Assembly: GCF_016598535.1 (NCBI RefSeq)
Contig: NZ_CP066779.1
Span: 372,001 to 436,000, forward strand
Direction of reading: 5' to 3'
Source of the DNA: Rhodococcus sp. P-2
GTDB taxonomy: Bacteria > Actinomycetota > Actinomycetes > Mycobacteriales > Mycobacteriaceae
DNA: 64,000 bases
In this document: piece after piece, positions 4,566-45,963 of the stretch
Layout: every line of letters starts with the position of its first letter
Numbering within the stretch: the first letter of the stretch is position 1
The notes under the pieces: model-generated
Told to the model about the DNA's origin: nothing
Databases searched by the model: none
The model's input: the letters and a program-made list of their open reading frames with translations, nothing else
Position numbers and translations under genes: made by a program

Positions 4566-6380
4566 TCAGTAGCCTTCCGGCAAGGCGGTGAGCATGTCGC
4601 GGGTGACTGCGACAGCGTTGTCCGAACTTCCGCCCCGCACAACCAGAGTCGCGAAGGCCAGGTTGCCTCGATAGCCGACGAACCACGCATGCGATCCCCC
4701 TTCGACCTCGGCTTCACCGGTCTTGCCGTACACCTCACCCTGATCTTCGACGCGTTCGGCAGTACCGCTGGTGACCACGAGCCGCATCATTCCGCGCAGA
4801 CCGTCGACCATGGCCGGCGTGATCGCTGGACGCTCGCCGTCGATGGTGGTTTCGCGCCCCGAAATCAGTTGCGGCACCGGAGTCGAACCGTTCGCGACCG
4901 TCGCAGCTGCCATCGCCATTCCGAACGGACTGACCACGACCTTGCCTTGACCGAACCCGTCTTCCGTCCGCTGGACCAGATCCGACGCCGGCGGCACCGA
5001 ACCCGAATCGATCGGCAATCCCACCACGTTGTAGTCCTGGCCGATACCGAACTGCGCTGCGGCAGTGGTCAACGTGTCCGGTTGCATCTCGCTGGCCAGC
5101 TTGGCGAAGGACGTATTGCACGAACGTGCGAAGGCCGTTGCCATCGGCACTGTGCCGAGTGAGAACTCGTTGTAGTTGGGAACGCTGCGCTCACCGATCT
5201 CGATCCGGCCCGGGCACGGCACCATCGTGTCGGGGGTCGCCTGACCGGTCGAAATCGCCGCACCCGCCGTGATGATCTTGAACGTCGAACCCGGTGGGTA
5301 CTGACCCATCGTCGCGACCGGACCGTCACGGTCCGCCGCCTTGTTCTGTGCAACGGCCAGAATGGCCCCACTCGACGGTTCGATGACCACCATCATCGCC
5401 TGGTCCTTGTTCACGTTCACCGCGCGCTGCGCAGCGATCTGGATGTTACGGTCCAGACTGATACTGAACGACGGAACAGGTTGCGGCGCAGTCTCGGTCA
5501 GCACGTCGGTGTCGACGCCGTTCTGGTTGACCGTGACGACACTCCAGCCGGCTTTACCGTCAACCTCGTCGATGATCGTCTTCTTGATCTGCCCGAGTAG
5601 GTCAGGCGCGAACTCCGGGTCCGTCGAGACGAGATCCGATTCGTCCGAGACAGATACTCCCGAGATGGCTCCCAGTTGCGCCGAAACCTGGTCGTAGTCG
5701 TCACTGCGCAGCCGGGTCACCAGATAGTCGCCCTTGACGGCCGTCGAGGATTCGGCGATCGACTGACCCGTCAGCGACGAATCGAACCGCCCGAGAACAC
5801 TTGCGAGACTGTTTGCGGAACCGATGATGTCGTTGCTCTTGGAGCGATCGAACTTCACTCGGTAGACGATTCCCGGCACCAGGACATCGGTCCCCGAATG
5901 TTCGTTGACCCGCGCTCGCGGCGCTGCGGTTGCCCGCAACGACATCGTCTGCTTGTCACCGAGGCGCGGATGAACGTCCGTCGAACTCCACCGGACGGAC
6001 CAGTCGCCGTCCTTGCGTCCCATCTGCAGCTCGCCGTCGTACGTCCAGACGCGGTCTTTCGGAAGGTGCCACTCGTAGGTGTAGCCGACCGTCGCGGTAT
6101 CACCGTTCATCTTCACCGACGTGGTCTCGGCAGTCATCGACTCCGCCTGGAGCGCATCCCAGGTGTCGCTCAATACAGGACCCGCGGAATCAGGCCGGTC
6201 CGTCAGTTTCGCTGCCTCGTCGATGTCCCTGTCACCGAACGCACTCAGGAACTGCTGCGCGACGGGCTCGGGACCGGCGGGTTTCGGAGTACACGAACTG
6301 ATCCCCACCGCCATGAAAATCACGGTGCAGGAGGCCAACAGTTGGGCCGAGCGACTACGAGAGAAATGCCGAGTGTTCAT
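4566..6380 (-). CDS. Penicillin-binding lipoprotein (class B-like transpeptidase)
   Basis: This 604-residue exported transpeptidase for peptidoglycan cross-linking starts with a lipoprotein signal ending in GISSC (lipid-modified Cys 30). A MecA-N/NTF2-like domain follows (about 35-150), then a dimerisation region and the catalytic domain. All three penicillin-binding motifs are present: STFK at 365-368, SCN at 420-422 and KTG at 553-555. From memory it matches M. tuberculosis Rv2864c in place and architecture. I used the ATG at 6380 because the signal peptide begins there; the frame extends 20 codons upstream without signal-like sequence. It may lie downstream of the GNAT, ispG, rip1 and dxr genes in a long minus-strand block. 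Confidence 0.92.
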   Translation of the reverse strand: MNTRHFSRSRSAQLLASCTVIFMAVGISSCTPKPAGPEPVAQQFLSAFGDRDIDEAAKLTDRPDSAGPVLSDTWDALQAESMTAETTSVKMNGDTATVGYTYEWHLPKDRVWTYDGELQMGRKDGDWSVRWSSTDVHPRLGDKQTMSLRATAAPRARVNEHSGTDVLVPGIVYRVKFDRSKSNDIIGSANSLASVLGRFDSSLTGQSIAESSTAVKGDYLVTRLRSDDYDQVSAQLGAISGVSVSDESDLVSTDPEFAPDLLGQIKKTIIDEVDGKAGWSVVTVNQNGVDTDVLTETAPQPVPSFSISLDRNIQIAAQRAVNVNKDQAMMVVIEPSSGAILAVAQNKAADRDGPVATMGQYPPGSTFKIITAGAAISTGQATPDTMVPCPGRIEIGERSVPNYNEFSLGTVPMATAFARSCNTSFAKLASEMQPDTLTTAAAQFGIGQDYNVVGLPIDSGSVPPASDLVQRTEDGFGQGKVVVSPFGMAMAAATVANGSTPVPQLISGRETTIDGERPAITPAMVDGLRGMMRLVVTSGTAERVEDQGEVYGKTGEAEVEGGSHAWFVGYRGNLAFATLVVRGGSSDNAVAVTRDMLTALPEGY

Positions 6381-6449
6381 CGAGCCCCATAGTAGGGCGA
6401 CAAATGCTCCACCCAGCGTAGGCGCGACCATTGCCTGCAACTTGGACGC

Positions 6450-7286
6450 TCAGTCGAGCAGCACCGTCGAAAAGGTCGCGACCTGCCGGAACCCCACGCG
6501 CGAATAGGTCGACCGCGCAATCGTATTGAAGCTGTTGACGTACAGGCTCGCAATGCGACCGGTCGCCATGATCGACTCCGCTACAGCCGCTGTACCGGTC
6601 ACGCCGAAGCCTTGTCCCCGAAACTCGGGATTGACCCACACACCCTGAATCTGGCCACAGCGCGCAGACATCGAACCGACCTCGGCCTTGAACACGACCT
6701 GACCGTCATCGATATGCGCCCACGCTCGCCCGGCGGCGATCAGGCTTGCGACACGATGTCGGTACCCGCGCCCACCGTCGTTGGCACGTGGATCGACGCC
6801 GACCTCTTCGATGAACATTGCGATCGCGGCAGGAAGATAGATCTCGAGTTCGTCCGAACGAACCTGCCGGACCAGCGGATCGGACGGACACGCCAACGGC
6901 TCGGATACCGCGAGCAAAGGTTGTTCGGGGCGGACCTCCCGCGCAGTTCCCCAATCGAGCTCGAGCATCTCCCATAGGGGCAACGCCAACTCGGCGCGTC
7001 CGACTACCGAGGAGCACATACGCGGAATCCGGCAGGCACGGTCAGCGAATGCCCGAATGTCATCCGGCTCGCCCCGAAGCGGGACCAAATTCGCCCCGGC
7101 AAAGCACAGGGAAGACAACGGCCCGCCTCGACTCCACAGCTCGCCGTGAATCATTCGCGGATCGACGCCGCATTCTTCGACACGCGCGGCAATCATGCAA
7201 GCCGCCACCGGATCGGCGTCGAGTACCGCCCGGACGTCCTCGAGATCTCGACTTCCGACCTGCTTGGCTCCGAGGAGTTTGAGCAT
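6450..7286 (-). CDS. GNAT-family N-acetyltransferase with N-terminal DUF4081-like domain
   Basis: This protein has 278 residues. The C-terminal half is a GNAT fold with the acetyl-CoA binding loop RGQGFGVTG near residues 222-231 and the late strand SLYVNSFNTIARSTYSRVGF. The N-terminal half matches the accessory domain seen in mycobacterial Rv2867c, which lies at the same place next to ispG (from memory). The substrate to be acetylated is unknown. The ATG at 7286 has GAGGGGG about 8 bases upstream. It lies 111 bases after ispG and 69 bases before the PBP gene, so co-transcription is likely. Confidence 0.85.
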   Translation of the reverse strand: MLKLLGAKQVGSRDLEDVRAVLDADPVAACMIAARVEECGVDPRMIHGELWSRGGPLSSLCFAGANLVPLRGEPDDIRAFADRACRIPRMCSSVVGRAELALPLWEMLELDWGTAREVRPEQPLLAVSEPLACPSDPLVRQVRSDELEIYLPAAIAMFIEEVGVDPRANDGGRGYRHRVASLIAAGRAWAHIDDGQVVFKAEVGSMSARCGQIQGVWVNPEFRGQGFGVTGTAAVAESIMATGRIASLYVNSFNTIARSTYSRVGFRQVATFSTVLLD

Positions 7287-7397
7287 CCGTCAACCCCCTC
7301 GACTCGACTGCGCGTCCACGAATATCACTACCCGATCATGATGCACTCAGATTGCCACGAACCTGACACCGACGGGGAAGATTCATCCGGCAATCAC

Positions 7398-8555
7398 TCA
7401 ACTCACGGTGACGACCGGTGCACCCTCCGAAGCGTCACCCTCCATGCTTTCGGCAATTTTCATCGCCTCTTCGATCAGCGTCTCGACGATCTGAGCCTCG
7501 GGCACCGTCTTGATGACCTTGCCCTTGACGAAGATCTGGCCCTTGCCGTTGCCGGACGCCACTCCGAGGTCCGCCTCACGCGCTTCACCCGGCCCGTTCA
7601 CGACGCAGCCCATGACTGCCACGCGAAGCGGAATCTCCATACCTTCGAGGCCGGCAGAGACCTCGTCGGCCAGGGTGTAGACGTCGACCTGTGCACGGCC
7701 ACACGAGGGGCACGACACGATCTCGAGCTTGCGCGGACGCAGGTTCAGCGACTGCAGAATCTGGTTACCGACCTTGATTTCCTCGGCCGGCGGGGCCGAG
7801 AGCGATACGCGGATGGTGTCGCCGATACCCTCCGCGAGCAGCGCACCGAAGGCGACCGCGGACTTGATCGTGCCCTGAAACGCAGGGCCCGCCTCGGTGA
7901 CGCCGAGGTGCAACGGGTAATCGCACTTGGCAGCGAGTTGGCGGTAAGCCTCGACCATGATCACCGGATCGTTGTGCTTGACGGAGATCTTGATGTCACC
8001 GAAGCCATGCTCTTCGAACAGCCCGGCTTCCCACAGCGCGGACTCGACCAACGCTTCGGGCGTCGCCTTGCCGTATTTCTCCATCAACCGAGGATCGAGC
8101 GATCCCGCATTGACGCCGATGCGGATCGGAATGCCCGCGTCACCGGCAGCCTTGGCTACCTCTTTGACGCGGCCGTCGAATTCCTTGATGTTGCCCGGAT
8201 TGACACGCACCGCAGCGCATCCCGCCTCGATTGCCGCGAAAATGTATCGCGGCTGGAAGTGGATATCCGCGATAACCGGGATCTGGCTCTTCTTGGCAAT
8301 GATCGACAACGCGTCCGCGTCTTCCTGACGCGGGCAGGCGACACGGACGATGTCGCAACCGGACGCGGTCAGTTCGGCGATCTGCTGGAGCGTTGCGTTG
8401 ACGTCATGCGTCTTCGTGGTGCACATGGACTGCACCGAGATGGGGAAATCGCTGCCCACACCTACCGTGCCGACCTGCAGCTGCCGTGTCTTGCGTCGAG
8501 GAGCAAGAATCGCTGCGGGTGCCGAGGGCATTCCCAGTCCGATAGGGATGGTCAC
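7398..8555 (-). CDS. ispG: 4-hydroxy-3-methylbut-2-enyl diphosphate synthase
   Basis: IspG (GcpE) converts 2-C-methyl-D-erythritol 2,4-cyclodiphosphate to HMBPP, the penultimate step of the MEP isoprenoid pathway, using a [4Fe-4S] cluster. With this start the protein has 385 residues. The cluster ligands are visible as C282 and C285 (SCPSCG), C317 (GCVVNGPGE) and E324. I chose the GTG at 8555 because GAAGG lies 7 bases before it and the mycobacterial protein starts at this place. An ATG six codons upstream (8573) is possible. dxr, another MEP-pathway gene, lies two genes upstream on the same strand, separated by rip1. Confidence 0.97.
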
Positions 8556-8642
8556 GTCTGTGCCTTCTTTCATAGCTTCACTGCAAGTTTAGCCGGGCGA
8601 TCGCCGCACTACCGCGCGGCAACCGTCGCCCTTCTCACACGG

Positions 8643-9861: not shown

Positions 9862-11019
9862 CTAGCCCTCCTGCTTCACGAGCTGACGCGCTCGTGTGCG
9901 TGCCCAGCCGTCTGCGGCCAGAACGTCGTCCACGGTAACCGGTTCCGCGGACCATTGACCTGCATCGTCGAGAACAGCGGCCACCGTGCGGACGATTGCC
10001 GGGAAGGAAATGACACCGTCGAGGAATGCCTGGGCCGCCACTTCGTTGGCCGCGTTGTAGATCGCGGTGAAGCAACCTCCGGATTTGCCCGCGCTTCGCG
10101 CCAGATCGACGGCGGGGAACACAGACGAATCGAGCGGCTCGAATTCCCAGGTGGAGGCGGTGGTGAAGTCGCATGCCGACGCCGCGCCTTCGATACGGTC
10201 CGGCCAGCCGAGAGCGAGCGCGATCGGCAGCTTCATGTCCGGTGGGCTTGCCTGTGCCAGCGTCGATCCGTCGAAGAAGGTCACCATGGAATGCACGATC
10301 GACTGAGGATGCACGGTGACGTCGATCCGGTCGTAGTCGATCCCGAACAGCAAGTTCGTCTCGATCAACTCGAGGCCCTTGTTGACCAGGGTTGCCGAGT
10401 TGAGAGTGTTCATGGGTCCCATCGACCAGGTGGGGTGCGCTTTTGCCTGTGCCGGGTTCACACTTTCGAGATCCTCGGCACTCCAGCCGCGGAATGGCCC
10501 ACCCGAAGCGGTGAGGACCAAGCGAGCCACCTCGTCGGCCGATCCGCCACGCAGGCACTGAGCCAGCGCGGAATGCTCGGAGTCGACCGGCACGATCTGA
10601 CCCGGCGCGGCAGCCTTGGTCACCAGCGCTCCGCCCGCCACAAGGGATTCCTTGTTCGCCAGCGCCAGACGCGCCCCCGAGTTCAAAGCAGCCAGAGTCG
10701 GCTCGAGTCCCAACGAACCGACGAGCGCATTGAGGACAACGTCGGCACCACTGTCCCGAACCAGTTCCGTCACGGCGCTCGGTCCCGAACGGGCGGTGAC
10801 CGATTCCAGCGCCGATGCCGCCGCAGGATCGGCAACGGCGACGTCGGTGACGCCTGTTGCGCGAATCTGTTCGGCCAACAACTCGACATTGTTGCCACCC
10901 GCCGCGAGTCCCACTACTTCGAAACGATCGGGGTTGGCGGCGATGACCTCCAGCGCTTGGGTACCGATCGAACCGGTGCTGCCGAGGAGGAGGACGCGGG
11001 TACGTGTGGTTTCCTGCAC
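9862..11019 (-). CDS. dxr: 1-deoxy-D-xylulose-5-phosphate reductoisomerase
   Basis: Dxr makes MEP from DXP with NADPH, the committed step of the MEP isoprenoid pathway. It has 385 residues. The nucleotide-binding loop GSTGSIG is at 13-19, the metal-binding region contains PVDSEHSA, and the substrate-binding NKGLELIE lies further on. I chose the GTG at 11019 with AGGAA about 10 bases upstream. The open frame runs on far upstream but overlaps the divergent DUF2631 gene and has no plausible start closer to the family N-terminus. It forms an operon with rip1, and ispG lies downstream. Confidence 0.96.
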
Positions 11020-11139
11020 CCGCCCATTGTTCCTGATAACACCTGAGAACAACCTTATCGACGCCCAACTACGTACGACAGGCAGTCGTATGTCACCATA
11101 TTGGGCAGTAGTGCAACCGAATGAGCAGGAGGATCGACC

Positions 11140-11409
11140 GTGGCCGATACCCAGTTGGACGTCAAGTCCAGCGCCCCCGTCGTGGTCTCGCACGTCGATG
11201 AGGCCGAGGTTCCCTCTGCCGCATGGGGGTGGAGTGGTGAAGGACTCAAGTTTTTCCGTTTCCTCGGATGGTTCTTCGCAATATTCCTGCTTCTGATGAT
11301 GATCGGAAACCATCACGGCAAGGTCGAGGATCTGTGGCTCATCGGCACCGCCGGATTGATGATCTTCATTCTGGTCCGCGACATCGTCATTCGTCGCCGC
11401 CCGCGCTAG
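11140..11409 (+). CDS. DUF2631 small membrane protein
   Basis: This 89-residue protein matches the mycobacterial DUF2631 family, which lies near dxr there too. Residues 1-30 are polar, and two hydrophobic segments follow (about 37-56 and 65-82) with a basic C-terminal end RRRPR, so it is a two-span membrane protein. Function is unknown. The GTG start has AGGAGG 7 bases upstream. It is divergent from dxr and ends in a strong terminator. Confidence 0.8.
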
Positions 11410-11420
11410 AGACCTGACAT

Positions 11421-11465
11421 AGAGAAGGCCTCCACGAACGAAAGTTCGTGGAGGCCTTCTCTTTA
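11421..11465. terminator. Bidirectional intrinsic terminator
   Basis: A perfect 19-base stem (AGAGAAGGCCTCCACGAAC) with a GAAA tetraloop is followed by CTTT. It lies between the convergent DUF2631 gene and rlmN. Confidence 0.9.
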
Positions 11466-11487
11466 CGTGTTTCAGGCCTGGAGCGTT

Positions 11488-12597
11488 TCAGTTCTCCGCG
11501 GCCAACTGACCACAGGCTGCGGCGATTTCCTGACCGCGCGTGTCACGCACCGTGCACGAGACGCCCTGAGCGATGACCCGACGCACGAACTCACGCTCGA
11601 CGTCCTTGGGGCTCGCGTCCCACTCGCTGCCCGGCGTCGGGTTGAGCGGAATCAAGTTGACGTGCACCAAACCGCCGAGCGCCTTCTTCAGCTTCTTGCC
11701 CAGCATGTCCGCGCGCCACGGCTGATCGTTGACGTTCTTGATCATCGCGTACTCGATGGAGACACGGCGACCGGTCTTGTCTGCGTAGTACCGGGCAGCC
11801 TGAAGTACCTCCGACACTGACCAGCGATTGTTGACCGGGACAAGGGTGTCGCGCAGTTCGTCGTCCGGCGTGTGCAGCGACACCGCCAGCGTGACGCTCA
11901 GGCCTTCGTCAGCGAGCTTGCGGATCGCCGGGGCAAGCCCGACGGTCGAGACGGTCACGGACCGCTGAGACAGGCCCAGTCCGTCCGGTGCAGGTGACGT
12001 GATGCGTCGTACCGCTGCCACTACGCGCTTGTAGTTCGCCAAGGGCTCACCCATGCCCATGAACACGACGTTCGACAAGCGGCCGGGGCCGCCGGCAACT
12101 TCACCGTCGCGCATGGCGGCCGCTGCCTCGCGTACCTGATCCACGATCTCGGCAGTCGAGAGATTGCGGTCGAGGCCGCCCTGACCCGTCGCACAGAACG
12201 GGCAGGCCATTCCACAGCCTGCCTGACTCGAGATGCAGAGTGTCGCCCGATCGGGATAGCGCATCAGGACGCTTTCGAGCAGCGTTCCGTCATGCGCCTT
12301 CCACAGGGTTTTGCGAGTGTCGCCCGAATCGCACGCGAGATGCTTGATCGGCGTCAACAGAGTCGGGAAGAGCGACTCCCCCACCTTCTCGCGCACCGAT
12401 GCGGGGAGATCGGTCATCTTCTCCGGATCGGCTTCGAGCCGCGCGTAGTACTGACGCGCCAGCTGATCGGCCCGGAAAGCCGGTAGGCCGAGCTCTTTCA
12501 CCGCTTCTTTGCGCTCGGCGGAATCGAGATCGGCGAGGTGCCGTGGAGGCATTCCGCGCTTGGGTGCAGTGAAAACGAGGGGAAGAGAGGCAGCCAT
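11488..12597 (-). CDS. rlmN: 23S rRNA (adenine2503-C2)/tRNA methyltransferase RlmN
   Basis: This 369-residue radical-SAM methyltransferase acts on A2503 of 23S rRNA and A37 of some tRNAs. The iron-sulfur motif is C128-x3-C132-x2-C135 (CGMACPFC). The GMGEP motif lies after it, and the conserved resolving cysteine is C348 ([11 protein letters not shown]). The ATG at 12597 gives an N-terminus like the mycobacterial enzyme; the open frame extends 33 codons upstream without a better start. The ribosome site is weak. It is divergent from the LapA-like gene. Confidence 0.95.
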
Positions 12598-12699
12598 AGT
12601 TACACCATTGTCCCATTGTTTTGGGGTGCTACCCCACTGCCACCCGATTGTGGCCGGATTACCCGTGCAACTTCGCGCAGGTTGCGTGATGATCATGTC

Positions 12700-13110
12700 A
12701 TGTCAACCACACCAGAGGATCCGTCGAACTCTCCCGTGTACGGCCCCGCCGACGGTTTCGGTCCCGACCCGGAACTTCCGAAAGTGGGCGAGGACAAGGC
12801 CGTCGAAAAACACGATCCCGAGCCGACGCCGGCGCCGGAACCTACGCCGACCGGAACGGCTGTCACCGACCGAACCAGAGCTGCGACAACCTGGGTTGGC
12901 CTGGTCATAGGCGCAATCGTGCTGATCTTGCTGCTGGTGTTCATCCTGCAGAATCTCGAGAGTGTCTCCGTCAAGATCCTGGCCTGGCAGATCGACTTTC
13001 CGCTCGGAATCACGATCCTGCTTTCCGCTATCGCGGGCGCGCTGATCATGGCATTGGCCGGCGGCGTTCGCATCATTCAGATCCGGCGCGCAGCGAAGCG
13101 GCAAATGTGA
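12700..13110 (+). CDS. LapA-domain (DUF1049) membrane protein
   Basis: This 136-residue protein has a proline- and acid-rich cytosolic start (residues 1-60) followed by two membrane segments (about 64-83 and 100-121). The signature [16 protein letters not shown] matches the LapA/DUF1049 family, which in enterobacteria (LapA with LapB) works in envelope lipid control. A role in an actinobacterium without LPS is unknown. The ATG at 12700 was chosen by the frame of the conserved part; the ribosome site is poor. It stands alone between rlmN and a CitE-like gene. Confidence 0.75.
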
Positions 13111-13193
13111 CTGAAATCTAGTTACGCAATTGGGTCGATCGATGGGCCACCAGGCATCATTGATGTCGTGGAAATCACCGGAAAGGCCCTGAT

Positions 13194-14048
13194 GTGACTA
13201 CTCACATGGAGAGACCTGTGACCTCGCGAATTGCCCCGCAGCAGGCAAGATCCTGGCTCCTCGTCCCCGCGTCCAAACCGGACACCTTCGACGCCGCCCT
13301 CGCGAGTGCGGCCGACGCCGTCATTCTCGACCTCGAGGATGCCGTCACCGCACCCAACAAACCGGCCGCCCGCCGCGATGTCGCCGCATTTCTGAGCGAG
13401 CACAATCACGCCTGGGTTCGGATCAACGACGCCACGACACCGTTCTGGGAAGAGGATCTCGCCGCACTCGCGGGCCTCCCCGGACTCGAGGGTGTCATGC
13501 TCGCAAAGACCGAAAGCGGACAGCAGGCCGACGCCACTGCCGAGCGACTACCCGAGGGCACCAAGATTCTTGCCCTCGTCGAATCCGCGGTGGGACTCGA
13601 AGCTGCCCCCGAGATCGCACGCACCGACGGAATCTTCCGTCTGGCATTCGGCAGTGGCGACTTCCGGCGCGACACCGGAATGGACGACTCGCCCACCTCG
13701 ATGTCGTACCCGCGTTCGCGGCTCACCATCGCCAGCCGCGCGGCACGCATCGCTCCGCCGATCGACGGCCCCACACTCGGCCCCGATCTGGATCTGCTCG
13801 CCCGAGACTGTGCGATCACGTTGTCACTCGGGATGGCAGGCAAGCTCTGCATGACCACCGCACAGACCGCCCCCGTCAACGCGGGCCTGAGCCCGTCCGT
13901 TGCCGACGCCATCTGGGCTCAGAACGTCATCGACGATCTCGGCGAAGACGGCTCACGCGTACGCGACGGTAGTGACCTACCCAAGCTCGCCAAGGCGAAG
14001 AAGATCCACAAGCTCGCCACCCTGTTCCACATCCCCACCGATCGCTGA
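13194..14048 (+). CDS. HpcH/HpaI aldolase-family CoA ester lyase (CitE-like)
   Basis: This 284-residue TIM-barrel lyase belongs to the citrate lyase beta/malyl-CoA lyase group, which cleaves or condenses beta-hydroxyacyl-CoA esters. Visible family residues are R76 (WVRIND), the magnesium ligands E130 (LVESAVGL) and D156 (FGSGDF), and the YPRSRL segment. No citrate lyase alpha or gamma subunits are nearby, so it is an orphan CitE-like enzyme and not part of a citrate lyase complex. The GTG start at 13194 has GGAAAGG shortly upstream; an ATG four codons later is also possible. Confidence 0.8.
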   Translation: MTTHMERPVTSRIAPQQARSWLLVPASKPDTFDAALASAADAVILDLEDAVTAPNKPAARRDVAAFLSEHNHAWVRINDATTPFWEEDLAALAGLPGLEGVMLAKTESGQQADATAERLPEGTKILALVESAVGLEAAPEIARTDGIFRLAFGSGDFRRDTGMDDSPTSMSYPRSRLTIASRAARIAPPIDGPTLGPDLDLLARDCAITLSLGMAGKLCMTTAQTAPVNAGLSPSVADAIWAQNVIDDLGEDGSRVRDGSDLPKLAKAKKIHKLATLFHIPTDR

Positions 14049-39802: not shown

Positions 39803-40945
39803 TCAAGCCTGCTTGTATTCGAGGACCGAACCGATCACCCGTTCCTGTTGTTCGGACGTGAGCATGGGCCACAGCGGCAGGCGAAGGATCGACGCGGAGA
39901 ATTCGGCGCTACGCACACACGGCTCCGGTGTTCGTCCGTAGCGCACACCGGCCGCACTCGTATCGAGCGGGACGTAGTGAAACGGCGCCACGATTCCATC
40001 AGCGGCAAGATGCCGGATCAACCCGTCGCGACACTCTTCGGTCGGCATCTTGAGATAGAACAGGTGCGCGGTGTGCTCGCGATCATCGGGGACCGACATG
40101 GGAACGACCCCGTTCTCGGACGCCCACTCGCCTAGACTCACGCTGTAGGTATCCCAGACGCGATGCCTGGCCGCTTGAATCGCGTCGAACTCCGAGAGTT
40201 GTGCGTCGAGGACAGCGGCATTGAGTTCACTGGGCAGATAACTCGACCCGATGTCCTGCCACGAATACTTGTCGACCTGGCCGCGTAGGAAACGCACACG
40301 GTCGGTCCCCTTCTCACGGATGATTTCGGCGCGGGTCATCAGCTGATCGTCGGAGAGCAACAGCGCGCCGCCCTCGCCGCAATGAACGTTCTTGGTGTCG
40401 TGAAAACTCTGCGTACCGATAGTTCCGATGGTGCCGAGCGCCCGCCCACGCCACTTTCCGCCGAGGCCATGGGCGTTGTCTTCGATCAACGCAACGCCGT
40501 GGAGTTTTGCGAGGTCGAGGAGAGGTTCCATGTCGGCGGCGACTCCGCCGTAATGCATGACCAGTACAGCTTTGGTGCGCTCCGTGATCGCCGCTGCGAC
40601 GCAGTCGGGATCGATATTGCCGGTACTCGGATCGATGTCGACGAACACAACAGCGGCACCGCGCAACGCGACGGCAGTCGCCGCCGAACTGAACGCGAAG
40701 CTCGGAACGATCACCTCGTCGCCAGGTCCCAATTCGAGGAGCAGCGCACCCAATTCGAGTGCATGAGTGCACGAAGTCGTCAGCAGAGCATGCGTGGATC
40801 CGGTGATCGCCTTGAGCGCAGCGGTCGCGGACTTGGTGAAGCGTCCGTCACCGTGAATGTGATCGGACTCCAGAACCGTTGCCAGATTCGACAATTCGTT
40901 CGATGCCCGATAGGGGCGGGAGAAGATGATGCGATCAGTGCTCAC
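39803..40945 (-). CDS. DegT/DnrJ/EryC1-family sugar aminotransferase (WecE/RffA-like)
   Basis: This 380-residue PLP enzyme would put an amino group on a nucleotide keto-sugar. The PLP lysine is K185 (SFHDTKNVHCGEGGAL) and D156 (IEDNAHG) contacts the cofactor. The whole resembles RffA/WecE, which makes dTDP-4-amino-4,6-dideoxygalactose, so a dTDP-4-keto-6-deoxy sugar is the likely substrate (inference). The GTG start lies inside the end of the glycosyltransferase gene (11-base overlap), so the two are coupled. It is part of a four-gene sugar cluster not seen at this place in mycobacteria. Confidence 0.88.
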   Translation of the reverse strand: MSTDRIIFSRPYRASNELSNLATVLESDHIHGDGRFTKSATAALKAITGSTHALLTTSCTHALELGALLLELGPGDEVIVPSFAFSSAATAVALRGAAVVFVDIDPSTGNIDPDCVAAAITERTKAVLVMHYGGVAADMEPLLDLAKLHGVALIEDNAHGLGGKWRGRALGTIGTIGTQSFHDTKNVHCGEGGALLLSDDQLMTRAEIIREKGTDRVRFLRGQVDKYSWQDIGSSYLPSELNAAVLDAQLSEFDAIQAARHRVWDTYSVSLGEWASENGVVPMSVPDDREHTAHLFYLKMPTEECRDGLIRHLAADGIVAPFHYVPLDTSAAGVRYGRTPEPCVRSAEFSASILRLPLWPMLTSEQQERVIGSVLEYKQA

Positions 40946-41921
40946 GACTATGCCGATCGATCGAGGTTCCGGGCCGCGGTGAATCGACAGTCAGATACAG
41001 CGGCTTTCCGACAAGGACGTGCAGTGCAACACCGAGGTATTCGGCGATGAGACCGAGCGAAAACAGGATCGCACCCGAACAGACCAGCAGCGCCATGATG
41101 ATCGACGCCCATCCTTCCGGGTCGTTGTTGTCACCGGTCATGGCTTGGATGAAGATCACCGCGGCCATGATCACACCGGCCGACGCCAGAGTGACTCCGA
41201 GCAGACTCACCAACCGCAGACCGCGGGTTCCGCTACACAACACCATCTTCCAGAACAACGAGAACAAACGCCGATAGTTGTACCCGGATTCCTCGCGGCC
41301 TTCGGCTCGAAGAGTCACCGGCGCCGTGGCCGTGTTGCCGACCACCCACGTCAGCGCGACGTCCAGGTACACGCCATTGGCGGCGACGCCGGCCAACTGT
41401 CGGCCGATGTCACCTCGGATCAGGCGGTAACTTTCGAATCTCGTCGAATCAGGGAACGCGAATACCGTCGCCAAGACGATCTTTGCGCCGCGCGATGTCA
41501 GGTTCCGCAAGAATCCATGCGGGCGAGTGTTCGTGGGTTTGGAATACACGAGATCGGATCGCTCCGTCAGCGCCGTGTCGAGGAAAGCCCCGATATGCAC
41601 CGGGTCGTGCTGGCCGTCCTCGTCCATCGTCACGATCCACTGTCCACGGGCAGCGGCCATACCGGCGATAGTCGCCGCGTCCTGGCCGTAGTTGCGACTG
41701 AGCCACACGACGCGCACCTGATCGAAACGACGCTCCAATTCGAGTAACACGACGTCGGAGCGGTCCGGTCCGTTGTCGTGGACCAGAACGATCTCGTCGA
41801 CGGTGAACTGCGCACCACCGGGCGTCGAACTCGGCGCGCACAGGCCGTCCAACTCCTCGACGAGCGCCGTGATCGTCTTTTCGCCCTGATAAACGGGCAC
41901 TACGACGGAAATCGAGTGCAC
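40935..41921 (-). CDS. GtrB/DPM-like family 2 glycosyltransferase
   Basis: This 328-residue enzyme has a GT2 catalytic domain (SVVVPVYQGEKTI at the start, metal motif MDEDGQHDP with D100 and D102) and two C-terminal membrane segments (about 233-258 and 270-297). Such proteins load a sugar on polyprenyl phosphate at the inner face of the membrane. The aminotransferase gene overlaps its end and a GtrA-like flippase is in the divergent operon, so the sugar loaded is probably the amino-sugar made next door (inference). The GTG at 41921 has GGAG about 9 bases upstream. Confidence 0.88.
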   Translation of the reverse strand: MHSISVVVPVYQGEKTITALVEELDGLCAPSSTPGGAQFTVDEIVLVHDNGPDRSDVVLLELERRFDQVRVVWLSRNYGQDAATIAGMAAARGQWIVTMDEDGQHDPVHIGAFLDTALTERSDLVYSKPTNTRPHGFLRNLTSRGAKIVLATVFAFPDSTRFESYRLIRGDIGRQLAGVAANGVYLDVALTWVVGNTATAPVTLRAEGREESGYNYRRLFSLFWKMVLCSGTRGLRLVSLLGVTLASAGVIMAAVIFIQAMTGDNNDPEGWASIIMALLVCSGAILFSLGLIAEYLGVALHVLVGKPLYLTVDSPRPGTSIDRHSREH

Positions 41922-42090
41922 TCGCTTCCACTCCCTTCAGGGGGCTCGACTGGCGCCGAGAGACAGGCACGATCGGGCCCACACCGTCGCGAACTTTAAC
42001 ACGCAGAGGTGTCCGGACTTCGGATGCCGACGGCGCGTGACGCGCTCGCGTCTCCGTGCGCCCCACCTGCCCTGTTAAGGTCTGGAACTC

Positions 42091-44292
42091 GTGGTGGAAA
42101 CTCGCACTCTCGCCCGGGCAGACGTGTACAAGTGGGGCGCCGTCACGGCGGTCGGTGTCATCGCCGGCTACCTGGCCGTGGTGCTCGCGAACGCTCGTCA
42201 CTTCTACACCGACGACACCGAGTCCCAGTACGCGCCGCTGTGGGTCATGCTCGGCCGTAGCCTGCGAGAAGGACACCTGCCGGTACTCGTCCCCGAGAAC
42301 TGGATGGCGGGTAACTACGCGATCGAGGAAGCGGGCCTTCTCAATCCGCCGCAACTTCTGATCGACCTGATCGCACCGTCCTTCGACAACCTCGCGCTGT
42401 ACGCGACGATCGTCAAGTTGATCTTCGCGATAATCCTTGCGCTGGGCGTCTATCGGATCTGCCTGGAGTACGGCTCGAAGCCCACGTGGGCTGCGGTCGC
42501 CGGAGTCTCGATTCCGTTCACCGGGTTCCTCCTGTTCTTCGACTCCGCCAGTTGGATGACAGCCTTCACCGGCACCGCATGGATGGTTCAGGCATGGGCG
42601 TCGGCAATCCGCTACGCCCGCGGCAAGAGCGGTCCGATCCCGACCTTCGTGTTCTTGTATCTCGCGATGTCGGTCCAATATGTTTTCCCCGCAGTCGAAT
42701 CCGGCTTGATGATCGGCGCGGTCGCAATCGGCGAAGTTGTCTATCAACGGCGTTGGTTGCCGTCGCTGCGGCTTCTGGCGGTATCTGCCTGTGCCGCCCT
42801 CGCCGGTCTCGCGACGTATCTACCGAGCCTGCTCACCGCCGACGTCACCTGGCGCGGCGCATCCGAAGTCAAGAACGACGCTTTCCTCGCCGTTCCCTGG
42901 TCGGAATCGCTGAACGCGAGCCTGCCGAGCACCATGCCTGCATTCTCCTCGTGGTGGGGATACATCCAGACCATGCCCATGGTCTACATCGCCTGGTTCC
43001 TCATACCCGCCCTGGCGTTCATAGACTGGGGCAAGGCACGCGGCGCGGCACGCGAATTGACCGCCGTCGGGATCTTCACGGTCGCCGTCCTCATGTGGAC
43101 GGCCGGGCCGAGCACGATCGGCCCACTTCGGTGGCCCGCGCGCGTTCTTCCGATGGTGGCCATCGGACTCCTGCTTCTGGTGTGCATCCTGCTCGGGCGT
43201 TACGCCACGACCGACAAGTTGCGCGGGCGCGCCGTTGCAGCGGGAATCCTCGTCGGCCTGCTTCTGATCAGGTCCGCCTCGGCAGCCCCCGGGCTCGCGA
43301 AATGGCACGTGATCTCAGCCCTGGTCGTTGTCGCACTGGGCGCCGCGATGGTCTGGCTGGGCCGTACGAAGGGCACCGCGCTCGCATGTCTGTTGGCAAT
43401 CGCCGCGGTCTCCCCCATCACTTACGCCCAGGTTCGAGCCGCGCAACCGACCCCGATGAGCTGGAACCTGCCCGAATCCCGCTCGGAGATGAAAGAGGCC
43501 TTCCCCGACTTCGACGGCACGACACTGCAACTGGGCGACCGTGCGCTCATCGCTCCCGGGGACAAGACCCTCGACGGAGCGTACGGTTCCCTGGCCTTCG
43601 GCAACTACCCCAAAGACCTCGAACTGACCTACACCAGCGGCTACACCCCCAACGGGCACTTCTACTTCGGTGATCTGCTCTGCATGCGCTGGGACATGAG
43701 CGTCTGCCCCGACGCCTTCCGACGTGCATTCACCGTCGAACCCACCACTGGCCGCACCATCGTCGACCTGATGAACGTGGACCGCGTCGTACTTCAGAAC
43801 GCCCTCTACCCCGATTCACGCAACAACCCGGCTCCCGACGGATGGACATGGGTCGACTACCCCGGCCACGAGAACTACATCTCGGTGCTCGAACGCGTCG
43901 ACGGCCCCGTCTCGACACGCAACGGACGCATCGCCGACGCCCAAGACGTCGAGGCTGTTTCGACCGGGGAATCGAACATGTCGAGCACCCTTCGTGTCAG
44001 TTCGGAGACCGGCGGCAGGGTTGTGTTCGCACGGCTCGGCTGGCCCGGATATCGGGCGAGCCTGGGCGGTCAGTCTGTCCCGATCGACGTCGTCGCGAAG
44101 TCCTTTGTCACCGTGGACATTCCCGCCGGGACGAAGGACGCAGAGCTTGTCCTGACGTGGCGCCCGCCGGGTTGGAAGGTCGGCGGCGCTTCGATGGTCG
44201 CCGGAATCCTCGGCCTCGGCGTGCTCGAGTGGATGTATCTGCGGACCCGGCGCAAGGACCGGATCGAGATCGTGAAAACCGAGTCTTCATGA
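42091..44292 (+). CDS. Large YfhO/GT-C-like membrane glycosyltransferase candidate
   Basis: This 733-residue protein has about 11-12 membrane segments in residues 15-445 and a soluble, beta-rich C-terminal part (about 455-700) before a last membrane segment. The first outer loop carries the DD motif HFYTDDTESQYAPLW, as in GT-C enzymes that use polyprenyl-linked donors. It resembles the YfhO group. It is coupled to gtrA by an ATGA overlap. The likely role is transfer of the lipid-linked sugar to an outer cell-wall polymer. The family call is from topology and motif only, so it is moderate. Confidence 0.7.
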   Translation: MVETRTLARADVYKWGAVTAVGVIAGYLAVVLANARHFYTDDTESQYAPLWVMLGRSLREGHLPVLVPENWMAGNYAIEEAGLLNPPQLLIDLIAPSFDNLALYATIVKLIFAIILALGVYRICLEYGSKPTWAAVAGVSIPFTGFLLFFDSASWMTAFTGTAWMVQAWASAIRYARGKSGPIPTFVFLYLAMSVQYVFPAVESGLMIGAVAIGEVVYQRRWLPSLRLLAVSACAALAGLATYLPSLLTADVTWRGASEVKNDAFLAVPWSESLNASLPSTMPAFSSWWGYIQTMPMVYIAWFLIPALAFIDWGKARGAARELTAVGIFTVAVLMWTAGPSTIGPLRWPARVLPMVAIGLLLLVCILLGRYATTDKLRGRAVAAGILVGLLLIRSASAAPGLAKWHVISALVVVALGAAMVWLGRTKGTALACLLAIAAVSPITYAQVRAAQPTPMSWNLPESRSEMKEAFPDFDGTTLQLGDRALIAPGDKTLDGAYGSLAFGNYPKDLELTYTSGYTPNGHFYFGDLLCMRWDMSVCPDAFRRAFTVEPTTGRTIVDLMNVDRVVLQNALYPDSRNNPAPDGWTWVDYPGHENYISVLERVDGPVSTRNGRIADAQDVEAVSTGESNMSSTLRVSSETGGRVVFARLGWPGYRASLGGQSVPIDVVAKSFVTVDIPAGTKDAELVLTWRPPGWKVGGASMVAGILGLGVLEWMYLRTRRKDRIEIVKTESS

Positions 44293-44735
44293 CCGAAGAC
44301 ATCGCATCACCCGAGAACCCCGGTCCACTGCTGCGGGTGGTCAAGCATCAGCCCATCGCGTTTGCCATTGTCGGAGTGGCCAATACGGCGATCGGATACG
44401 TGCTCTTCGTGATCTGGTCACTGATCCTCGACAACAAGGATCTGTATCAAGTGGCTGTGATCGGCGCGTACTCCATCAGCGTGCTCATCGCTTTCGTTCT
44501 GCATCGGACTCTGGTTTTCCGCGTCCGCGGACATGTCGCACGCGACCTGGGTGCGTTCATCGTCGTCAATTCCGGTGGCCTGGTGCTGAATCTGATACTC
44601 GGAACAATCGCGGTGTCGATTCTGCATGCCCCTCCGCTTCCCGCCCAAGCGGTTGTCATGTTGATCGTCGCCGGTGTGAGCTTCTTCGGTCATCGATACT
44701 TCTCGTTCCGCCGCAAACCTGCCGAACGGCACTGA
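44289..44735 (+). CDS. GtrA-family polyprenyl-phosphate sugar flippase
   Basis: This 148-residue protein has four membrane segments (about 23-45, 53-72, 90-110, 117-137) and the GtrA family pattern FAIVGVANTAIGYVLF and FLHR-like loop FVLHRTLVFR, with the end FFGHRYFSFRRK. GtrA proteins are thought to move polyprenyl-phosphate sugars to the outer face. The ATG overlaps the stop of the YfhO-like gene. Together with the GT2 gene on the other strand it makes the parts list of a three-component envelope glycosylation system. Confidence 0.9.
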   Translation: MTEDIASPENPGPLLRVVKHQPIAFAIVGVANTAIGYVLFVIWSLILDNKDLYQVAVIGAYSISVLIAFVLHRTLVFRVRGHVARDLGAFIVVNSGGLVLNLILGTIAVSILHAPPLPAQAVVMLIVAGVSFFGHRYFSFRRKPAERH

Positions 44736-44739
44736 CCTC

Positions 44740-45318
44740 CTACGATTCGCGGGGTAACGCTCGATCCACCGCCGCCTCGACGATCGTACGAATATCTTCC
44801 TCCCCGAACAGGTTCGGCAATGTGAGTCGATCCAGTACAAGCCAGTTCAGCGACAAATAGAGCAGGCGAACGGTCATCGCATCGCCGGGCACCCCGGATG
44901 CCAGGTGATTGGCGACATTGAGGTCGAAGTCTTCTCGGATGCGGACGGTCAAGACCGCTCGCAGGTCCGGTCGACGCGTCGCCTCCAGCCGCAACTCCAT
45001 GAGCGCGAGGAAACCCGTTCCGAACGAGGTGACCCGCTCGACCACGTCGAGCATGAGCGTCACCAGGCGCTCACGATCGGTGCCGTTGACGGGATCGATC
45101 ATCCCTGCGAGGTCGTCCGGAATCAGTCGCTCGTAGATCCGGCCACCCGCTTGGGTGAGCAGGTCGTCGCGATTGGAAAAGTAGTTCGACGCTGTCCCGT
45201 TCGGCACGGCCGCCTGGGTGTCGACGGCCCGAAAAGTCAAGCCTCGAGCACCCTCTCGGGCCAACACCTCGATTGCCGCGTCGATCAGGGCAAGCCGACG
45301 TTCCGGGTTCTTTCGCAC
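44740..45318 (-). CDS. TetR-family transcriptional regulator
   Basis: This 192-residue regulator has a standard N-terminal TetR helix-turn-helix (about 8-55, AVPNGTASNYFSNRDDLL) and a ligand-binding C-terminal part. The GTG at 45318 has AGGAG about 9 bases upstream. It is divergent from the reductase-like gene and likely represses it and itself through the repeat in the 69-base spacer. The ligand is unknown. Confidence 0.88.
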   Translation of the reverse strand: MRKNPERRLALIDAAIEVLAREGARGLTFRAVDTQAAVPNGTASNYFSNRDDLLTQAGGRIYERLIPDDLAGMIDPVNGTDRERLVTLMLDVVERVTSFGTGFLALMELRLEATRRPDLRAVLTVRIREDFDLNVANHLASGVPGDAMTVRLLYLSLNWLVLDRLTLPNLFGEEDIRTIVEAAVDRALPRES

Positions 45319-45353
45319 TTGACATCACTCCTGACACGACCCTAAGTTGAACC

Positions 45354-45376
45354 ACTACAAACATAGTACTACGAAC
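45354..45376. promoter_or_regulatory. Possible TetR operator
   Basis: Two direct copies of ACTACRAAC (45354-45362 and 45368-45376), 14 bases apart, surround a TAGTACTA palindrome between the TetR gene and the reductase gene. This is the natural place for the operator. Confidence 0.45.
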
Positions 45377-45387
45377 GGAGCGTCAAG

Positions 45388-45963
45388 ATGCGAAAGCTTG
45401 TGTACTACGTGGGAGCTTCTCTCGACGGCTACATCGCGGGACCAGACGGCGAATTCGATTTCTTTCCGGTATCCGAACAGATCACGGCCTGGATACGCGA
45501 TCGATATCCCGAGACCGTGCCAACGCATGTGCGGCCCGCTCTCGGAATCGAGGACGCGCCCAACAGAACCTTCGATACGGTCATCATGGGCCGCGGCTCT
45601 TACGAACCCGGGCTGACCGCCGGCGTGAGAAGCCCCTTCGCACACCTGCGCCAGTTCGTCGTCTCCACAACCGTCCCTGACGCCGAGGATCACGCGGTCA
45701 CAATCGTCCGCACCGACCCACTGGCAGCAATCAAATCCCTCAAAGGAGAAGAGGGACAGCATATCTGGCTGTGCGGAGGCGGAACTCTCGCCGGCGAACT
45801 ACTACCGGAGATCGACGAGTTGATCATCAAGAGGTATCCGGTTGTCGCCGGCGCAAGCATACCGATGATCAGAGGTGACTACGCGCCGACACTGTTCACA
45901 CCGACTGCAACCGAATCGCTCGACGACGGCGCAAGCATCACCTGGTTGAAGCGAAATACCTAA
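45388..45963 (+). CDS. Dihydrofolate-reductase-like (RibD C-terminal family) protein
   Basis: This 191-residue protein starts MRKLVYYVGASLDGYIAGPDG and contains TVIMGRGSYEPG and a WLCGGGTLAGELL nucleotide-binding loop, the pattern of the DHFR/RibD-C family. These are NADPH-dependent reductases of mostly unknown substrate. The ATG has GGAG about 7 bases upstream. It is divergent from a TetR gene, so it is probably induced by a small compound. Its end overlaps the trmD stop by 4 bases. Confidence 0.85.
   Translation: MRKLVYYVGASLDGYIAGPDGEFDFFPVSEQITAWIRDRYPETVPTHVRPALGIEDAPNRTFDTVIMGRGSYEPGLTAGVRSPFAHLRQFVVSTTVPDAEDHAVTIVRTDPLAAIKSLKGEEGQHIWLCGGGTLAGELLPEIDELIIKRYPVVAGASIPMIRGDYAPTLFTPTATESLDDGASITWLKRNT

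Follow-up and report, generated by a model that had tools for sequence, protein, structure and literature searches.

Gene content and organization of the locus

Four genes, arranged as two divergent operons, occupy a region of the window (i.e., the whole stretch of 64,000 nucleotides analysed), which comes from a member of the Rhodococcus erythropolis/qingshengii group. The reverse strand carries genes for a WecE-type aminotransferase of the DegT/DnrJ/EryC1/StrS family (39803-40945; PF01041) and for a membrane glycosyltransferase of family GT2 and of the ArnC/GtrB type (40935-41921; PF00535), which overlap by 11 bases (40935-40945). The forward strand carries genes for a 733-aa membrane protein, assigned with AlphaFold2 and Foldseek as a probable YfhO-type GT-C protein with a C-terminal beta-rich domain (42091-44292), and for a 148-aa GtrA-family flippase (44289-44735; PF04138), which share an ATGA overlap. 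The divergent intergenic region of 169 bases (41922-42090) showed no sigma-70-like promoter or terminator consensus, and no RNA families were found in the window.

The four genes are flanked by a gene for a beta-lactamase-fold protein (PF13354), which we take to be lppW, on one side and by trmD on the other. This placement, the two divergent operons and both overlaps are as described in an earlier, sequence-only reading of this DNA. A TetR regulator gene and a RibD_C gene (window positions 44740-45963) lie between the GtrA gene and trmD; as one relative (L035) keeps the module without TetR and another (L127) shows neither TetR nor RibD_C, these two genes do not belong to the module.

Predicted functions of the four proteins

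The aminotransferase scored well over the cut-off for PF01041 (294 bits) and passed that of the NCBIfam model NF008687 (WecE; 501.3 bits vs. a cut-off of 375); TIGR02379 was narrowly missed (423.6 bits vs. 434.85). Its top PDB chain was Escherichia coli WecE (4piw; 1.1e-95), with which it shares 46% identity over 373 columns as well as the PLP lysine (SFHDTKN aligned with SFHETKN of WecE, i.e., SFHxTKN), and ArnB, perosamine synthase and CalS13 were far behind WecE among the solved relatives. This WecE-type assignment points to dTDP-4-amino-4,6-dideoxy-D-galactose (Fuc4N) as the likely sugar, and agrees with the earlier suggestion, based on the presence of an aminotransferase, of an amino-deoxy sugar donor. 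Co-occurrence of the genes for dTDP-4-keto-6-deoxyglucose, which had been proposed as a check, was observed, as rmlA and rmlB are both found in the same genome, where they sit inside the galactan locus.

The GT2 protein also scored well over the cut-off of its Pfam family, with ArnC (9hwj; 1.3e-22) and GtrB (sll0501; 3.3e-20) as best PDB chains and with hydrophobic segments at residues 234-252, 268-286 and 287-305 of its C-terminal part. It missed the equivalog cut-offs for ArnC (92 bits vs. 529), PgfS and PpgS (model NF058614; 19.5 bits vs. 370), and is thus not of the PpgS type. By sequence, it is a probable polyprenyl-phosphate sugar synthase. The GtrA protein scored 66.5 bits against PF04138 (cut-off 26.1) and has four hydrophobic segments; the window genome carries six GtrA genes in all.

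The large membrane protein alone had no match in a first Pfam search, and reached an E-value of 0.001 and 18.0 bits against PF09586 (YfhO), which is under the gathering score of 28.5. PF09586 was, however, matched by 66 of 68 relatives of this protein at E ≤ 0.01 (best 1.2e-11) and by 18 of 20 members of a wider set of relatives (best 3.4e-11). When PF09586 was searched against whole genomes, no protein of the window genome matched at the genome-search threshold and Bacillus did, which marks the window protein as a divergent member of the YfhO family. Its AlphaFold2 model (pLDDT 81.4, pTM 0.85) was compared with the PDB by Foldseek, which returned ArnT (5f15; 9.8e-6), AftD (6w98) and DPY19, followed by ALG12 and OST; the strong matches were GT-C enzymes throughout, at moderate TM-scores (0.43 to 0.57 for ArnT) and with a fold match that leaves the substrate unfixed. 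A YTDD motif follows the first transmembrane segment, and its D42 is invariant in 20 diverse relatives, even in those with 30% identity; the inferred topology would place this acidic motif in an extracellular loop. Structure prediction had been set beforehand as a test that could refute the sequence-only reading; a GT-C fold was found and the relatives matched YfhO, and the model indicates that the protein is probably a GT-C glycosyltransferase that uses a lipid-linked donor. We also observed weak matches to its last 90 to 100 residues in open reading frames some 1000 aa long in three other genomes (G067, G076 and G080), perhaps reflecting a shared YfhO-type C-terminal domain.

Conservation and origin of the module

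The survey took in 84 loci that encode a close relative of the large protein; most are from Nocardia, with others from Tomitella and Rhodococcus. The aminotransferase, GT2 and GtrA clusters were each represented in 75 of these loci; in an overview of the others, many were on short contigs or represented extra copies of the large gene. The genes are divergent in most Nocardia, lie on one strand in four loci (L011, L014, L015 and L100, the last from R. zopfii) and are rearranged in two (L012 and L110). Pairwise identities of the large protein were correlated with those of GT2 (r = 0.95) and of GtrA (r = 0.83), a correlated divergence that is owed partly to shared ancestry. This linkage is well past chance neighbourhood, and the expectation that the four genes would stay together in relatives was borne out. 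In many Nocardia loci (L041, L042, L044, L048, L060, L062, L070, L089 and others) two copies of the large GT-C gene are adjacent, in some cases with a second GtrA gene and a YkuD L,D-transpeptidase gene alongside.

The large protein of the window shares 95 to 97% identity with its counterparts in R. erythropolis NBRC 15567 and R. qingshengii IEGM 1359. Ten genomes from the genus or family lack the module at this site (L111, L114, L115 and L117 to L123); in these, the lppW homologue adjoins trmD without a module gene in between, and the gap measures between some tens and a few hundred bases in nine of them and about 1.4 kb in the tenth (L117). In the tree of the large protein, the R. erythropolis group and Tomitella fall within Nocardia with strong support. 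The window trmD, on the other hand, is no closer to Nocardia (81-87% identity for those tested) than to other rhodococci (81-88%). The empty site in other rhodococci, together with the nesting within Nocardia, suggests as the simplest reading that the module probably entered the lppW-trmD site by transfer; differential loss is a possible alternative. The sequence-only reading had considered a dedicated amino-sugar decoration of a Rhodococcus wall polymer; the module is not confined to Rhodococcus, as it occurs widely in Nocardia, within which the copy of the R. erythropolis group is nested.

Homologues of the large protein in galactan loci

More distant homologues of the large protein occur inside the galactan locus, which contains bpa, wzm, wzt, glfT1, a gene for a GlfT2-like enzyme and usually rmlABC. 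These homologues are of two types, i.e., a B type with 46 to 50% and a C type with 30 to 33% identity to the window protein. The B type, which branches in the tree as sister to the module-type protein, is paired with a GT2 gene and, where the locus is complete, with a GtrA gene, and an SDR enzyme replaces the aminotransferase. In most C-type loci, the aminotransferase is another DegT enzyme, accompanied by a Gfo/Idh/MocA oxidoreductase that comes closest to UDP-GlcNAc 3-dehydrogenase and by an LpxA-like acyltransferase, a combination that suggests a 2,3-diamino sugar. The presence of such homologues with different sugar-making partners in the galactan locus suggests that the transferase remains constant and the sugar supply changes.

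The window genome has its own C-type homologue in its galactan locus (L030; G000:C1:3025500-3045000). Comparison with three other loci (L017, L018 and L142) revealed a serotype-like cassette exchange within the galactan-export locus among close relatives, with flanks that are 91 to 93% identical and a core that is replaced. Nucleotide identity to L018 is 92 to 93% in the flanks, 74% over rmlCAB and approx. 69% where part of the GlfT2-like gene aligns, and the remaining core of this pair could not be aligned. The R. qingshengii locus L142, by contrast, is 94% identical to L030 over 19 kb. Both the type of large GT-C protein and the sugar-making genes vary between the galactan cassettes. Within L030 (positions 5719-8629), the genes for the LpxA-like acyltransferase, DegT aminotransferase and oxidoreductase resemble the GnnA/GnnB/LpxA route to 2,3-diamino sugars, here in a Gram-positive galactan locus.

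Proposed function and alternative explanations

The best reading of the locus, to which we assign a probability of about 0.65, is a module devoted to transmembrane glycosylation with a 4-amino sugar; we are more confident of the broader prediction from sequence that it represents a polyprenyl-phosphate amino-sugar glycosylation system of some kind. Support comes from the gene content, the protein families, the predicted fold, the linkage, the precursor genes and the kinship to the galactan-locus cassettes. We infer the substrate, every reaction, the direction and the acceptor of the module as follows. RmlA and RmlB, whose genes are present, would supply dTDP-4-keto-6-deoxyglucose, which the WecE-type aminotransferase, judging from its family, would convert to dTDP-Fuc4N. 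At the cytoplasmic face of the membrane, the ArnC/GtrB-like GT2 may then attach Fuc4N to polyprenyl phosphate, the GtrA protein may flip polyprenyl-phosphate-Fuc4N across the membrane, and the YfhO-type protein, with its predicted GT-C fold, may transfer Fuc4N to an envelope glycan outside the membrane. The product would be an envelope glycan with a free, positively charged amine.

By analogy, the leading candidate for the acceptor is the galactan part of arabinogalactan, an assignment that we make tentatively. Arabinogalactan is favored since relatives of the large gene are found inside the galactan locus, and the tree sister of the module-type protein is the galactan-locus B type, which is likewise paired with GT2 and GtrA. 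Alternatively, the same chemistry could serve a lipoglycan (lipoarabinomannan-like), an extracellular polysaccharide or a surface protein, for which the chances are also somewhat below even. The window module itself is outside the galactan locus, as it is in the genomes examined, and the C-type homologue in the galactan locus of the window genome could already serve galactan. Moreover, a 4-amino-6-deoxyhexose is absent from the published composition of N. nova arabinogalactan, which is given as Rha, Ara, Man, Glc, Gal and GlcNAc (PMC12794489), and N. nova NBRC 15556 (L104) has all four genes; in this material, the sugar could be masked by low stoichiometry or by the method of hydrolysis.

For the sugar itself, sequence evidence argues that it is probably Fuc4N; a different 4-amino sugar, e.g., Qui4N or a derivative that carries an acyl group or another modification, appears unlikely. 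The C4 stereochemistry of the product is a prediction from the family, TIGR02379 fell just under its cut-off, and an unlinked enzyme could acylate the sugar. Against these points, NF008687 was clearly passed and WecE is by far the top solved relative of the aminotransferase. The WecD N-acetyltransferase had no match in the window genome, which makes a free amine likely, although acylation by an unrelated acyltransferase is possible. Finally, that two unrelated operons became neighbours by accident, as their divergent transcription in the window might suggest, is highly improbable given their correlated divergence and a linkage that is kept across Nocardia, Tomitella and Rhodococcus in varied orders and genomic sites.

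Comparison with known systems

The Arn system modifies lipid A with 4-amino-4-deoxy-L-arabinose, ArnT being the 4-amino-arabinose transferase, and uses a UDP-linked pentose, a formylation step, lipid A as acceptor and a different flippase. The likeness to ArnB/ArnC/ArnT is that, for a 4-amino sugar, an aminotransferase of the DegT family is combined with a GT2 polyprenyl-phosphate transferase and a GT-C enzyme; ArnT is the top fold match of the large protein and ArnC the closest solved relative of GT2. The window module, however, is predicted to use a dTDP-hexose rather than a UDP-pentose, and, as the substrate of ArnC is a formylated sugar, the absence of a formyltransferase from the module counts against the proposed reading. 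To the enterobacterial common antigen pathway the module is linked by the equivalog-level match and sequence identity of its aminotransferase to WecE. In that pathway, WecF moves the acetylated sugar from the nucleotide to a lipid-linked glycan, whereas the window system is without a WecD match and its route probably passes through a polyprenyl-phosphate sugar.

Known multi-component transmembrane glycosylation systems consist of a membrane-linked GT-A enzyme that makes a polyprenyl-phosphate sugar, a GtrA-family or Wzx flippase and a GT-C enzyme with an acidic motif (DxD or modified) in an extracellular loop, and they decorate teichoic acids or other wall polymers with GlcNAc, Gal or Glc (PMC8035078). 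The window contains a GT-A enzyme, a flippase and a GT-C enzyme with an acidic motif, all as predicted from sequence and fold, so that at the level of sequence features the earlier view of GT2, GtrA and the GT-C/YfhO-like protein as parts of a three-component system holds. The membrane GT2, the GtrA-family flippase and the YfhO-type GT-C are shared with the CsbB/GtcA/YfhO systems of Bacillus, Listeria and Staphylococcus; unlike these, the window module has a built-in sugar-making aminotransferase and its hosts are mycolic-acid bacteria.

The sequence-only reading also drew a comparison with PpgS-Rv3779-Rv3789, the system for galactosamine on mycobacterial arabinogalactan; this held for the working principle (i.e., an amino sugar carried on polyprenyl phosphate, with a transferase in the membrane) and failed for sequence kinship with Rv3779. 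The large protein had no BLASTP match to Rv3779 and an hhalign probability of 0.3%, and the two belong to different Pfam families, as the mycobacterial Rv3779 orthologue is assigned to PF20176 (DUF6541) and the relatives of the large protein to PF09586. No match to DUF6541 was found in the window genome. The syntenic orthologue of Rv3779 (L167) lies beside bpa and the galactan ABC transporter, and the sugar supply of PpgS/Rv3779 is UDP-GalNAc rather than a dTDP-linked sugar (PMC9671496). Judged by sequence, the module lies outside the Rv3779/PpgS system.

Possible significance for wall variability

The mycolic-acid cell wall has arabinogalactan as its backbone, with galactosamine in mycobacteria and glucose in Nocardia among the known side sugars. 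Within the mostly open-access literature searched, we found nothing relevant on Fuc4N, thomosamine or 4-amino-4,6-dideoxy sugars in the walls of Nocardia or Rhodococcus, and no report of the module or of its decoration. A far-reaching and rather doubtful reading is that Fuc4N represents an unreported arabinogalactan decoration in Nocardia and the R. erythropolis group, one among exchangeable, serotype-like galactan decorations made by a single YfhO-type lineage with varied sugar genes. If true, an amino-sugar decoration in Nocardia and swappable galactan cassettes in rhodococci would make wall variability genetically testable. As infection of Corynebacterium glutamicum by phage Cog needs arabinogalactan-modification genes (PMC9671496), wall variation of this kind may have a bearing on phage sensitivity, surface charge and diagnostics.

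A separate gene set was observed in the galactan locus of Nocardia brasiliensis (L132, positions 9971-13236), where the GlfT2-like gene is separated from rmlB by genes for a GT2, a GtrA protein and a DUF2142 membrane protein. As a beta-glucose side chain has been described on Nocardia galactan (PMC12794489), this set is a candidate for its addition.
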